Positions 1 to 64,000 of a stretch of DNA of 64,000 nt are shown piece by piece. The position numbers and the translations under genes were made by a program. Under the pieces are notes generated by a model. That model was given only the letters and a program-made list of their open reading frames with translations. It searched no databases and was not told the DNA's origin. The stretch lies in NCBI RefSeq assembly GCF_029919255.1, contig NZ_CP123991.1:1729110-1793109 (forward strand), given 5' to 3'. The DNA comes from a cyanobacterium endosymbiont of Epithemia clementina EcSB (GTDB lineage Bacteria > Cyanobacteriota > Cyanobacteriia > Cyanobacteriales > Microcystaceae). Position 1 is the stretch's first letter. Each line of letters opens with the position of its first letter.

Positions 1-833
1 GCCGTAAAGCTATCCTTCAAGATCTTGCCATTCTCACTGGTGGTAGCGTCATTTCTGAGGATGTGGGGTTAAGTCTTGATGCGGTTTCTATCGATATGTT
101 GGGAAAAGCCGCTAGAGTGACTATTGAAAAAGATAACACCACTATCGTTGCTAGTGGCGAACACAAAGCCAAAGCTGCCGTTGAGAAACGGGTAGCCCAA
201 CTCCGTAAACAACTAGAAGAAACTGACTCTGACTACGATAGCGAAAAACTTCAAGAACGAATTGCGAAATTAGCTGGAGGTGTAGCCGTTATCAAGGTGG
301 GAGCTGCCACTGAAACGGAACTAAAAGATCGCAAACTTCGTATTGAAGATGCCCTCAACGCAACTAAAGCGGCAGTTGAAGAAGGCATTGTTCCAGGGGG
401 AGGGACAACCTTAATTTACTTAGCTAATAAAGTTGCTGAATTTAAGAAAACTTTAACTAACCCCGAAGAGCAAGTAGCAGCCAACATCTTCACCAAAGCC
501 TTGGAAGCCCCTCTGCGTCAATTGGCAGATAACGCTGGAGTTGAAGGGTCAGTTATTGTTGAGAGCGTCCGCAACACAGAGTTTAATATAGGTTATAACG
601 CTGTCACAGGCAAGTTTGAGGATATGATTAAAGCCGGTATCCTTGACCCCGCAAAGGTCGTTCGCTCTGCTTTACAGAATGCGGCTTCTATTGCTGGTAT
701 GGTATTGACTACTGAAGCGTTAGTAGTCGAGAAACCAGAACCAGAACCCCCAGCAGCCCCTGATATGGGCGGCATGGGCGGCATGGGCGGCATGGGCGGC
801 ATGGGCGGCATGGGCGGCATGGGTATGATGTAA
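1..833 (+). CDS. groEL: Chaperonin GroEL, 3' part
   Basis: This is the C-terminal half of the 60-kDa chaperonin that folds cytosolic proteins in an ATP-driven double ring with GroES. The reading frame is open from base 3, so the gene starts upstream of the window; the GTG at 63 is internal. The fragment includes the [13 protein letters not shown] stretch, the [13 protein letters not shown] segment, the EGIVPGGGT loop and the [16 protein letters not shown] helix. The tail is a run of Gly-Gly-Met triplets ending GMM, the flexible tail that lines the folding cavity. A long GGM tail is more usual for the groES-linked cyanobacterial paralogue (GroEL1), but groES would lie outside the window, so the paralogue is not certain. 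A terminator-like hairpin follows about 40 bases after the stop. Confidence 0.97.
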
Positions 834-874
834 TTCCCTAGGCTCTCAAGGTTCCCCATCTTGCATAATTTTTT

Positions 875-910
875 AAAGAGAGATGTTCTTTTGAATGTCT
901 CTTTTTCTTT
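875..910 (+). terminator. Probable groEL terminator
   Basis: AAAGAGA (875-881) pairs with TCTCTTT (898-904), followed by TTCTTT. The position just after the groEL stop fits a rho-independent terminator, although the stem is short and AT-rich. Confidence 0.55.
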
Positions 911-924
911 GGCTAAAAAAACAC

Positions 925-980
925 AATCACTAATTAACATTTTTTAAAAAATGTAATTTAAAAAATGTTAATTAGTGATT
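925..980. repeat. Perfect 24-bp inverted repeat
   Basis: Bases 925-948 are the exact reverse complement of 957-980, with an 8-base spacer. It lies between groEL and the macA-like gene and follows a separate terminator-like hairpin, so it is a second structure. It is one of a set of long AT-rich hairpins in this window. Confidence 0.85.
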
Positions 981-1116
981 AAGTGTCCTTTAGAGTTGAT
1001 TGCTCAAAAGTCTCTTAAGCAAGGTTTATTCTATTATCAAAGAGAAGAATAGGAGAAACGTTAATATAGTGGGAACAACTCTTTATCTTTAGTTTGTTTT
1101 TGTACTAGTAGTCCCT

Positions 1117-60924: not shown

Positions 60925-61116
60925 TTAAAGCAGCTTAAACATTAAATTAACATGGCGTTCTATAAGTAGATCTAATGCTTCTTTCATCCTCAGAAAATAT
61001 TGTGGAGATAGGAAGTCATAAAGCGTGATTAAATCATAAAAGAATCTATCATCGTCTTCATTATTTACAAGAAACCAGGTGACTTTTATCGGACATAAAT
61101 TACTATACGATAACAT
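60925..61116 (-). CDS. Possible 63-aa hypothetical protein
   Basis: An open frame in AT-rich DNA gives a protein-like stretch, NNEDDDRFFYDLITLYDFLS then PQYFLRMKEALDLLIERHVN. The amphipathic helix and acidic turn look more coding-like than the flanks. No ribosome site is clear, and it may be the end of a decayed longer gene. I do not recognise it. Confidence 0.35.
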   Translation of the reverse strand: MLSYSNLCPIKVTWFLVNNEDDDRFFYDLITLYDFLSPQYFLRMKEALDLLIERHVNLMFKLL

Positions 61117-61293
61117 TTGAAAATTTACATTATACTGATTTTGTCTCTAATAACCTATAGTTGGTTTTATTTAAACTAAATTAAACAGTTAGTTAATTAT
61201 ATTTGATTTATACTTAACCCTTAAGAGAGTTGACGATCATCAACTCTATCTTCAATAACTAATAAAAAATCTCCAATTACTGGTTAGTATCTT

Positions 61294-62673
61294 ATGAATT
61301 CTGTTTGGAATCAATTTACTCTCTCCTGTTTCTCTCCATATCAGTGGCTTAGTGGTAGTTATTTATATCGTATTGTCGGTTTGTTAAGTCAATGGCGACA
61401 GGGAAGTTTGCTCTTGAAATGGGGAGAACCTCTCGGTGCATTATTGATTAGTATTGTCTTTATTTTTGGACCCTTTATTACCACCAGTCTAATTGGGGTT
61501 TGGTTAATGGCTTTAGCTGGGTATTGGGGAATACTAACTATATCTGATAAAGGACCTCCAGGAGTTACTCCTATTCATTTAATGGTGATTTTGTATTGGG
61601 CAATTGCTACTATTGCAGTAGCATTCTCTCCAGTCAAAACAATTGCATTATCAGGACTAATTAAGTTAAGTTTATACCTTCTCTTTTTTGTAATATGTGC
61701 GCGAATTCTACGCTCACCTCGTCTTACTAACTGGCTAATTACTATTGTTTTATTAATTGGCTTAGTCGTCAGTTCCTATGGAGTGAGACAAAATTTTTTT
61801 GGAGTTGAACAGTTAGCCACTTGGAATGATCCGACCTCTGAATTAGCCCAAGCAACTCGCGTTTATAGTTATTTAGGTAATCCTAATTTACTTTGTGCCT
61901 ATTTATTTCCGGCAATCGCCCTGAGTATTGGGGCAGTTTTTGTTTGGCGAGGTTGGTTACCGAAAACTCTAGCGGTCACCATGGTTTTGACTAATTCTGC
62001 TTGTCTATATTTTACAGGCAGCAGGGGCGGATGGATTGGCATGATAGCCTTGTTAGTCGTCTTTATGTTATTGCTTTTCTTGTGGTTTTGGGAGCTTATA
62101 CCTAATTTCTGGCGTAAGTGGCTATTAACTCTAGTATTAGGAGGATTTACAGGATTTATTCTGGTTGCGGTGATGACGGTAGAACCTTTACGGTTACGAG
62201 TTATGAGTATTTTCGCTGGACGTGAAGATAGTAGTAATAATTTTCGTATGAACGTTTGGATGGGAGTGATCGATATGATCCGAGATTATCCCCTCACTGG
62301 TATTGGTCCGGGAAATGGGGCTTTTAATATTGTTTATCCTCGTTATATGAGTCCTAAATATAGTGCTTTGAGTGCTTATTCTATCTTCCTGGAAACTGCA
62401 GTAGAAATGGGATTAATTGGCTTAGGAATTTTTCTTTGGTTAATTGTGGTTACTCTTAATCAAGGGGTTCAACAAATGCAACGGTTACGTTTTAAACATA
62501 ACACCCAAGGCTTTTGGTTAATAGCGGCGGTCGCTGCTATGGCTGGTATTTTAGCTCAAGGATTAGTCGATACAGTTTGGTATCGTCCTCAAGTTAATAC
62601 CTTGTGGTGGTTTGTCGTGGCTTTGATTGCTAGTCAGTATCAATTTCAAACAAAAGAACAAGCAATAAAATAA
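61294..62673 (+). CDS. ictB: IctB family membrane protein (O-antigen ligase-like)
   Basis: IctB was first linked to bicarbonate uptake in cyanobacteria but belongs to the O-antigen ligase/Wzy fold, so its true role is debated. The 459-residue protein has about ten membrane segments. It begins SVWNQFTLSCFSPYQWLSGS, close to known IctB starts, and has QNFFGVEQLATWNDPTSELA, YLGNPNLLCAYLFPAIALS, the ligase-like loop YFTGSRGGWIGMIALL, and the large outer loop with RMNVWMGVIDMIRDYPLTGI and GPGNGAFN. A strong terminator follows 88 bases downstream. The gene is intact. Confidence 0.92.
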   Translation: MNSVWNQFTLSCFSPYQWLSGSYLYRIVGLLSQWRQGSLLLKWGEPLGALLISIVFIFGPFITTSLIGVWLMALAGYWGILTISDKGPPGVTPIHLMVILYWAIATIAVAFSPVKTIALSGLIKLSLYLLFFVICARILRSPRLTNWLITIVLLIGLVVSSYGVRQNFFGVEQLATWNDPTSELAQATRVYSYLGNPNLLCAYLFPAIALSIGAVFVWRGWLPKTLAVTMVLTNSACLYFTGSRGGWIGMIALLVVFMLLLFLWFWELIPNFWRKWLLTLVLGGFTGFILVAVMTVEPLRLRVMSIFAGREDSSNNFRMNVWMGVIDMIRDYPLTGIGPGNGAFNIVYPRYMSPKYSALSAYSIFLETAVEMGLIGLGIFLWLIVVTLNQGVQQMQRLRFKHNTQGFWLIAAVAAMAGILAQGLVDTVWYRPQVNTLWWFVVALIASQYQFQTKEQAIK

Positions 62674-62761
62674 TTCAAGAGAAGTTACTTTATCGCCGTC
62701 TGTCCAGTGAACACCATCTATAGGACACTTACTACTATTGAACAAGTTTTTTAAAACTCGC

Positions 62762-62820
62762 AAACAATTATGCTGGCTTGGCTAGAGACTTCGTAGATAG
62801 CCAAGTCAGCATAATTGTTT
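62762..62820 (+). terminator. ictB terminator, 22-bp stem
   Basis: Bases 62762-62783 pair with 62799-62820 with a single G-T mismatch, around a 15-base loop, followed by T-rich GTTTTTTGTC. This has the full form of a rho-independent terminator. Confidence 0.8.
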
Positions 62821-64000
62821 TTTGTCAACACTCTTATAAATTCGGTATTTCATGTTTGTTATTAGCAAAAATAAATTCTAGAATAAATTTATAAATACGT
62901 TCTAAGAACCATTAAAAGTATCAACTCTGCTTTTTATGTCAACACTCCTCATACAGACGAAGAGCGGGGGGGTTAACCTTGGTAAGCAAAGTTTTTCGAC
63001 CCAGTGACACTTATTAAAATGTCATATTCAGAGTTAGACAAATAGAAGAAGTGCTTTTCGATCTATGAAAGCTAATAGTTCTCAACAAGAAATCTCTCTA
63101 CTTCTAAACTATTTCGTTCCGGGCGTGATTCGATGACTCTTATATTCTATAACTACTATTGCTCATTCATATGTGTCTTTCAAAATTTTACGAGTTAATC
63201 TATCTTTTTTTCTCCTTTGCCATTCGTTCTCGATGCCGTTCAATTTTAGGGAATAAGAATATAACTATTTTTTATGAGTCTGCTTAACTCTTTTTCGCTC
63301 TCTTCTTTCAGATCAGCTACAAGTTACAGCTGACCTGAGATTAATGCACTATTTGTCTAGATTATCAAAATATTTTTCCTACAGCTTCGCGGAGCATTCC
63401 ATAATCTTATTAATCCAAATTTGTTCCATCGATGAATTGTTGTACAAACTGTTTTTAAATAGATGGCAGTATTCTCCATTTACTGCTCAATGGCTCACAA
63501 GTTCACTACACTAGCTCTATCATTTTGTTCTTCGAGGAGCTTTTTTAACTTGACTTGGATGAAGTAAAATTCTTCCCTACCCTGACTTTATAAATACTCT
63601 TAAAGAAGAAGACGACATCAACCAATCAAAGTTTTTATGATTAAATCTGTCAGAATATTATGATATTTGTTTGTGGTGATTGTTTTTAACGCTGTATTGG
63701 TATTTCAGTATAGTGCTACTTGTTTATGCCTAACTACTTAGGAAAAATAATTTCATTCAACCCTTCTAGAAATGAAAAGAGTAATCACCCTTCTGTCATC
63801 AGAAAATGGGGGTATGAGCTCCGTCGTAGAAATATAACCTTATATTAAAATATAAAATGGTTGATCGACTCACCCGAGACGATAAATTTGGATAGCCTTT
63901 AGAGCCGAGTTCAGTTAAACGGCGGACCAGACAAATAAATAGATCGGGAAAAGAGGATAGACAAATGAGTATAAGCATCTCTGGAATCAAAAAATACAGG
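62821..64000. other. 1.2-kb gene-free region to the window end
   Basis: No gene is recognised. A hairpin-like CAGATCAGCT/AGCTGACCTG pair is near 63309-63337. The minus strand carries short protein-like fragments (for example FPKIERHRERMAKEKK near 63210-63255) but no signature. A 63-codon minus frame near the end (63799-63990) has no ribosome site and mixed composition. Confidence 0.5.

Follow-up and report, generated by a model that had tools for sequence, protein, structure and literature searches.

The genomes of spheroid bodies, the nitrogen-fixing endosymbionts of rhopalodiacean diatoms, range from 2.5 to 3.1 Mb, as given in one part of PMC12903740. The same part describes EaSB, EtSB (from Epithemia turgida), RaSB, and RgSB (from Rhopalodia gibberula) as close relatives of each other, states that most chlorophyll genes are retained in RgSB, EcSB (from Epithemia clementina), and EpSB (from E. 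pelagica), places RaSB among the spheroid bodies with little or no chlorophyll pathway, and attributes an uptake hydrogenase to all the endosymbionts. Pseudogenes and disrupted transposase genes are known from the spheroid body of R. gibba, according to a section of PMC2246100, and passages of PMC5638926 count 22 insertion sequence (IS) elements in RgSB and 18 in EtSB, none of them likely to be transposable. The part of PMC11131595 that deals with mobile elements presents spheroid bodies as devoid of them, with transposase fragments only, none larger than one IS3 remnant of about 100 aa, and proposes that mobile elements were lost early. Eroding spheroid-body genomes have thus been described before, and the present one is of a known type. 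What is new here, and open to testing, is the history of one insertion sequence of the ISL3 family, studied from a stretch of 64,000 nucleotides (the window) in the chromosome of EcSB, the endosymbiont treated in part of PMC11070190 and compared with the others in PMC12903740.

We compared the window, which spans positions 1,729,110–1,793,109 of its chromosome, with matching regions in three spheroid bodies, RgSB (NZ_AP018341.1), EtSB (NZ_AP012549.1), and EpSB (NZ_OX373462.1), and in two genomes from outside this group, SU2 and Rippkaea orientalis PCC 8801. The EcSB chromosome is a single contig of 3,072,807 bp with a completeness of 99.78%; the records of the relatives measure 3,020,309 bp (RgSB), 2,794,318 bp (EtSB), 2,483,960 bp (EpSB), and 4,679,413 bp (PCC 8801). 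It is a single, reduced, AT-rich chromosome (35.4% GC, guanine plus cytosine, in the window) within the 2.5–3.1 Mb expected of a spheroid body, with a low coding density as judged from the window. Taking all the evidence below together, we are highly confident that the window belongs to the genome of a nitrogen-fixing spheroid body (diazoplast) of the Rhopalodiaceae, in which a burst of ISL3 elements was followed by slow decay.

A stretch of 600 bases behind macB has numerous matches in RgSB and EtSB, and five nearly equal ones in PCC 8801. The element of PCC 8801 encodes a DDE_Tnp_ISL3 transposase, and the relics are homologous to it. A genome-wide search with this transposase (E-values up to 0.001; 150 of the 163 EcSB candidates scored) gave 106 matches in EcSB, 102 in RgSB, 62 in EtSB, 1 in EpSB, 4 in SU2, and 7 in PCC 8801. 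Five of the seven copies of PCC 8801 are full length, open, and 99–100% identical; among the spheroid-body matches listed, of which the best come first, none is full length and open, and the longest open frame covers 196 of the 408 aa. The 106 matches cannot be equated with 106 elements, as one site can yield several of them (24 hits for 16 sites in 291 kb of EcSB). To delimit sites, we combined the PCC 8801 element with 54 fragments of EcSB, RgSB, and EtSB in a DNA profile (nhmmer). This profile identified 16 sites in EcSB (291 kb searched), 14 in RgSB (292 kb), 13 in EtSB (268 kb), and 4 in EpSB (145 kb). It had no hits in a Markov shuffle (EcSB and RgSB), in the reversed sequence of all four regions, or in the 174 kb that surround the matching genes in SU2. 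The relics within the window are the following:

3956..4562, plus strand: ISL3 relic covering model positions 19–617; RgSB, EtSB, and EpSB each have a relic at the corresponding place.
35036..35539, plus strand: ISL3 relic covering model positions 828–1372, with a relic at the matching place in EtSB; the RgSB flank hits lie 15 bp apart, and no relic was found at this place in EpSB.
50278..50580, no strand given: ISL3 relic covering model positions 4–364; here too, RgSB, EtSB, and EpSB each have a relic at the corresponding place.

Most of the EcSB sites hold a relic at the same place in other spheroid bodies. When matching places were mapped by their flanking sequence, a relic was present in RgSB for 12 of the 16 sites, in EtSB for 12 of the 15 that could be mapped, and in EpSB for 4 of the 8 mapped, these four being all the relics found in EpSB. 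Overall, 15 of the 16 sites in the 291 kb have a matching relic in at least one other spheroid body. Relic-free EcSB spaces of at least 500 bp, used as a control, matched a relic in 2 of 58 cases in RgSB, in 1 of 58 in EtSB, and in none of the 36 that could be mapped in EpSB. This control replaced an earlier one based on random places, which included coding sequence, weighted unmapped draws by one fifth, and gave 1, 1, and 2 of about 60. Some relics even have their break points in common, such as the one that spans model positions 976–1452, 975–1446, 976–1451, and 993–1452 in the four genomes. The element had already spread by the time these lineages split, and it later died out.

The sequence distances between relics give a rough clock for this spread, one in which detection is biased toward similar copies. 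Matched relics have a median Kimura two-parameter (K2P) distance to EcSB of 0.28 in RgSB (n = 11), 0.31 in EtSB (n = 11, one probably misaligned), and 0.49 in EpSB (n = 4). Copies within the same genome are further apart, at 0.60 in EcSB (113 pairs), 0.77 in RgSB (83), and 0.82 in EtSB (55). For comparison, distances at four-fold sites are 0.18 to RgSB, 0.43 to EpSB, and 0.61 to SU2. The spread of ISL3 thus seems older than the split of EpSB and may have taken place on the stem of the spheroid bodies, after the divergence of SU2. We propose tentatively, with slightly less than even confidence, that on this stem and around the time of host restriction a single ISL3 element reached many dozens of copies and became extinct before the compared lineages split, leaving a graveyard that was kept in the freshwater spheroid bodies and mostly erased in the marine one. 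In the literature on Epithemia transposases and on diazoplast genome reduction and insertion sequences, searched by title with supplements and most subscription journals outside its scope, no listed title refers to such a graveyard.

The spread could also have occurred in a free-living ancestor and be unrelated to symbiosis, the endosymbiont having only inherited and fossilised its products, a scenario whose plausibility likewise stops a little short of the halfway mark. In a survey of ISL3 in 50 genomes of the wider family, with at most 36 candidates scored in each and counts that are thus lower bounds, larger genomes that we take to be free-living have at least 35 matches, many of them open. 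Such high counts mean that a burst is no proof of host restriction, and the relic clock, by dating the spread before the EpSB split, fits this scenario too. On the other side, the four matches of SU2, with none in the 174 kb around the matching genes, and within-genome distances that fall roughly between the EpSB and SU2 splits, i.e., on the stem, speak against this scenario. The scarcity in SU2 and the stem-range distances are nevertheless compatible with a free-living stage on the stem itself.

The placement of EcSB among the spheroid bodies was obtained from several data sets. In BLASTN searches of related genomes, the window groups with RgSB, EtSB, and EpSB. We concatenated the 26 window genes present in all six genomes, including HupL and HupS, and recovered the topology (((window,(RgSB,EtSB)),EpSB),SU2,PCC 8801) with supports of 99–100 for proteins and 100 for DNA. 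Over these genes, DNA identity with the window reaches 93% for RgSB and 85% for SU2. Two genes stood outside the set: dnaB, omitted because of its intein, and LeuA, whose PCC 8801 copy is cut at the locus edge. A separate LeuA tree, based on a quick search and comprising 30 rows (the window and 29 of the 80 fetched loci, E. turgida absent), gathers the window, RgSB, and EpSB in one clade (support of 99 in the approximate likelihood-ratio test, SH-aLRT). In this tree SU2 and the metagenome-assembled genome UBA12306 have no resolved position, and the Crocosphaera-type rows (BG0011, MO_133, SU3) are one branch further out. The window is therefore nested among known spheroid-body genomes in both trees, and SU2 is, in the 26-gene tree, the nearest free-living genome sampled. 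The initial annotation had predicted nesting with the Epithemia and Rhopalodia spheroid bodies beside Crocosphaera/Cyanothece. The 26-gene tree, in which HupL was analysed together with HupS, and the LeuA tree uphold the nesting among spheroid bodies; as the nearest free-living kin, the 26-gene tree has SU2 instead.

These data also bear on the possibility that the window comes from a UCYN-A-type nitroplast or from a relative of Crocosphaera, which belong to the same broad family and would equally retain nitrogen fixation and an uptake hydrogenase. This possibility is now negligible. The chromosome measures 3.07 Mb, far from the compact genome of about 1.4 Mb of a nitroplast, as the initial annotation had anticipated in calling it unlike the compact UCYN-A type, and from the 1.4–1.5 Mb of two small single-contig genomes of the family that presumably represent UCYN-A. 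The Crocosphaera-type rows fall outside the group of spheroid bodies and SU2 in the LeuA tree (UCYN-A is absent from the trees), and the 93% identity with RgSB over 26 genes points away from both lineages.

The window has the low coding density of a spheroid body. We curated the list of intact genes from open reading frames (ORFs) of at least 100 aa, NCBIfam matches, and the open frames of two free-living relatives. It includes 36 genes, counting the tail of groEL at the window edge, that cover 39,500 of the 64,000 bases, i.e., 61.7%, close to the 62% first estimated. ORFs of at least 100 aa cover a fraction of 0.63 of the window, and 0.58, 0.57, and 0.61 of the matching regions of RgSB, EtSB, and EpSB; the values are 0.83 for the SU2 loci and 0.81 for the four larger PCC 8801 loci. 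The GC content is 38.6% in intact genes and 30.1% in the remainder of the window. Within the latter we counted 15 SU2 open frames that are broken or fragmentary, more than the minimum of nine dead genes initially noticed; 11 have Pfam names, and the other four may not all be genes:

5149..5779, plus strand: ruin of a Ser/Thr protein kinase (609 aa in SU2; Pfam).
12571..13200, plus strand: ruin of a membrane protein with a VTT domain (Pfam), disrupted in each of the four spheroid bodies.
21226–21388, no strand given: TrkA-N ruin (Pfam).
21450–21852, no strand given: ruin of an MFS_2 sugar transporter (Pfam).
26767..26919, minus strand: fragment of a 353-aa SU2 open frame, with no Pfam match.
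29466–29690, minus strand: DUF3593 ruin (Pfam).
29806–30102, minus strand: DUF2499 ruin (Pfam).
34034..34206, no strand given: fragment of a 125-aa SU2 open frame, with no Pfam match.
36154..37395, minus strand: ruin of glcD, a glycolate oxidase-type FAD enzyme of photorespiration.
39311..39869, minus strand: ruin of an IS607-type resolvase (MerR and Resolvase).
45354..46315, plus strand: ruin of a 337-aa SU2 open frame, with four frameshifts in common with RgSB.
46432..46978, plus strand: ruin of an alpha/beta hydrolase, broken in all four spheroid bodies, with one frameshift common to the window, RgSB, and EtSB.
49769..50150, no strand given: fragments of an alpha-amylase (Pfam).
58005..58312, no strand given: ruin of a 124-aa SU2 open frame, with no Pfam match.
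60421..61088, no strand given: fragments of an ABC exporter (Pfam).

The glcD, MFS_2, and amylase ruins bear out the initial impression that genes of photorespiration, sugar transport, and carbohydrate breakdown are dying. The 15 ruins are what remained of 21 SU2 rows flagged as broken, the relic of the ISL3 transposase being handled separately. The six excluded rows were dnaB (split only by its intein), tal (only the C-terminal tail affected), groEL (at the window edge), two SU2 proteins that hit the IS607 ruin again, and macA. The last has a shifted start: it has a stop near the SU2 start that is absent from the other spheroid bodies, and the frame from position 1117 spans the whole PCC 8801 protein. 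Some spaces (13201–13341, 13371–13610, 26903–27148, and 63352–63519) hold short repeats with copies elsewhere in the genome and, for some, in RgSB or EtSB; these are possibly relics of further insertion sequences. A comparison of the window spaces with themselves was set aside, most of its matches, near 55% identity, looking like AT-rich noise.

Could the stops and shifts be sequencing errors in a poorly polished assembly of a free-living diazotroph? Some lesions are one-base shifts, as such errors would be. However, RgSB, EtSB, and EpSB have no intact counterpart of any of the 15 ruins in their matching regions, to which this comparison was confined, and identical lesions occur in the independently published RgSB. 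With a completeness of 99.78% and spaces as AT-rich as those given above, this leaves sequencing error a vanishingly small probability, and we rejected it as the origin of the ruins.

Part of the decay is old. To count shared lesions, we aligned each ruin singly to its SU2 gene, retained nine well-aligned ruins of the 15, and compared the counts with 2000 random draws, the stops being drawn from an any-substitution pool. Joint alignments place gaps together in strongly decayed genes, and we did not rely on them for the kinase, TrkA-N, MFS_2, the 353-aa frame, the amylase, and the ABC exporter. The window and RgSB have 8 frameshifts in common (0.95 expected, maximum of 6 in the null) and 20 stops (5.27 expected, maximum of 13); the window and EtSB have 12 stops in common (3.24 expected, maximum of 9). 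RgSB and EtSB have 4 frameshifts and 16 stops in common, both equal to the maximum of the null. The frameshifts in common with RgSB imply that some of the decay had occurred before the window lineage separated from RgSB and EtSB. Among the ruins compared with the other spheroid bodies, no gene is clearly dead in the window alone. Legible ruins thus need not be recent, contrary to the initial annotation, which had read them as the mark of recent loss; the common IS sites lead to the same correction. They probably stay legible because deletion is slow.

Several observations weigh against the picture of an ancient burst and slow decay in an endosymbiont. The frameshifts common to the window and EtSB (3 versus 0.74 expected, maximum of 5) lie within the null, as do those common to the window and EpSB (3 versus 0.61, maximum of 4), and the latter pair has a single stop in common for 1.02 expected. 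Given so few lesions in common with EpSB, the gene deaths cannot be dated before its split. The VTT ruin, broken in all four genomes, has no lesion common to the window and the other spheroid bodies. A harsher null, restricted to transition-prone codons, gave no excess of common stops for any pair (23 versus 27.2 for the window and RgSB); this null saturates because the stops often outnumber its pools. Fragments of EcSB, RgSB, and EtSB went into the ISL3 profile, EpSB alone being independent of it, and the high ISL3 counts of larger genomes given above belong here as well. Lastly, it is kinship that makes life inside a diatom very probable and that suggests inheritance with the host.

The functions kept and lost in EcSB are those of a nitrogen-fixing spheroid body, in line with the BLASTN, LeuA, and 26-protein placements that already supported the initial identification of such an endosymbiont. 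The nitrogenase gene nifH is open in all six genomes. The photosystem genes psaA/B, on which we based the assessment of photosystem loss, are broken in EcSB and RgSB and open in SU2 and PCC 8801; searches for them in EtSB and EpSB gave no match. The psaA/B ruin of EcSB, at chromosome positions 2151964–2153483, is still legible over about 500 codons and has some twenty stops. A gene that we presume to be chlL from its family is open in EcSB and broken in EtSB. This gene, the size of 3.07 Mb, and the branching just outside RgSB and EtSB fit EcSB; the gene and the branching disfavour as the source RaSB (an abbreviation that we read as R. gibba), whose size of 3,058,178 bp is similar. The retention of HupSL, reported initially for the window, extends to the three other spheroid bodies. 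The intact genes most relevant to the comparison are:

18322..20971, minus strand: uptake hydrogenase genes hupL and hupS, intact in the window and in the three other spheroid bodies.
5908..8730, minus strand: dnaB with an in-frame intein of about 495 aa that includes a LAGLIDADG domain.
10362..11448, minus strand: transaldolase gene tal, with an intact catalytic part and a C-terminal tail of about 60 aa lost.
48863..49729, plus strand: UrtB/LivH-like permease, intact, as it also is in EpSB.

The permease is broken in RgSB and EtSB, with lesions common to both, a pattern that agrees with the tree and indicates that gene loss is continuing. The tail of tal was lost through a stop at codon 328 that the four spheroid bodies have in common. 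All of them also have the dnaB intein, in frame, and the SU2 gene lacks it; the intein evolves faster than the exteins (79% identity with RgSB, against 96–97%). The window has an intact ORF of 135 aa at 11833–12240, whose counterparts in RgSB, EtSB, and EpSB are each interrupted by at least one stop.

A few elements within the junk look as if they were still under constraint. Two of them are adjacent:

13696..13760, plus strand: glutamine riboswitch RF01739, type 1 (54.2 bits, above the Rfam gathering score of 35).
13796..13957, plus strand: 53-aa IF7-like ORF (NF052599, E-value of 1.1e-4, 22.4 bits).

The ORF follows the riboswitch and has the same length in SU2. With 22.4 bits against a cut-off of 70, and matching positions 2–35 of the 66 of the profile, it is best called IF7-like rather than IF7 (gifA). 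Judged by eye in the alignment, the window and RgSB are nearly identical over the interval that opens shortly ahead of the aptamer and ends where the ORF starts, amid surroundings that have drifted, which suggests persisting constraint. EtSB has no riboswitch at the matching locus and has lost the IF7-like ORF; it has one glutamine riboswitch in its genome, and EcSB, RgSB, and EpSB have two each. In Synechocystis, a part of PMC6316151 describes a glutamine riboswitch that controls IF17 and inactivating factors that switch glutamine synthetase (GS) off. By analogy, glutamine-rich spheroid bodies would dampen GS and leave ammonium for the host. The riboswitch and its ORF bear on how far GS is switched off and on which form of nitrogen leaves the endosymbiont; we found no paper on riboswitches in Epithemia. 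A small ORF of about 50 aa behind the IF7-like one (14041–14200) is present in SU2 and PCC 8801 and broken in the window. The second glutamine riboswitch of EcSB, at chromosome positions 309324–309400, precedes a predicted membrane protein of 76 aa with no significant family match. This protein has the same sequence in EcSB and RgSB, differs little in EtSB, EpSB, and SU2, and is a candidate for nitrogen handling or export.

These observations can be assembled in the following scenario. With host restriction, photosynthesis, photorespiration, sugar uptake, polysaccharide breakdown, and sensing would have come under relaxed selection, and the genes concerned would have died through small frameshifts and stops, their ruins kept legible by slow deletion. 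Before the divergence of the spheroid bodies compared here, one ISL3 insertion sequence would have spread in many copies over the chromosome of their ancestor and then gone extinct, its broken copies remaining at matching sites in the living lineages as part of the junk, as seen in the 291 kb analysed. A few elements in this junk, notably the glutamine riboswitch with its 53-aa IF7-like frame, would still be constrained. Broken genes and dead insertion sequences found at matching places in several host lineages can be ordered on the tree. This makes testable a step predicted for endosymbionts, the early multiplication of insertion sequences driving decay, and cautions against taking legible pseudogenes as recent. 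If the scenario is true, a burst, its extinction, a stable gene order, and a slow decay of junk would fit the classical model of early endosymbionts. It would also revise the view, found in the passages of PMC11131595 cited above, of stable chromosomes that lost their IS elements early and kept fragments, and the matched relics would provide a neutral clock for the symbiosis.

Among known systems, the window is closest to the matching regions of RgSB, EtSB, and EpSB, with which it has in common its gene order, an intact core, HupSL, nifH, a low coding density, psaA/B genes that are broken or not found, and many ruins and ISL3 sites. It differs in that its lineage branches off before RgSB and EtSB, and in the genes that it retains and others have lost: the UrtB-like permease (dead in RgSB and EtSB), an M23 peptidase (dead in EtSB), a sugar-nucleotide fusion protein (frameshifted in EtSB), the 135-aa ORF (broken in all three), and a gene of 136 aa (broken in EpSB). 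The UCYN-A nitroplast resembles EcSB as a nitrogen-fixing endosymbiont of a unicellular eukaryote, and differs by a gene-dense genome of 1.4 Mb that is nearer to Crocosphaera than to Rippkaea, as stated in a part of PMC12903740. The ISL3 element of R. orientalis PCC 8801 is the closest known system for the relics, which align over about 1.45 kb of the model built on it; it has five full-length, near-identical copies in its genome, whereas the open frames of the spheroid-body matches listed reach at most 196 of the 408 aa.

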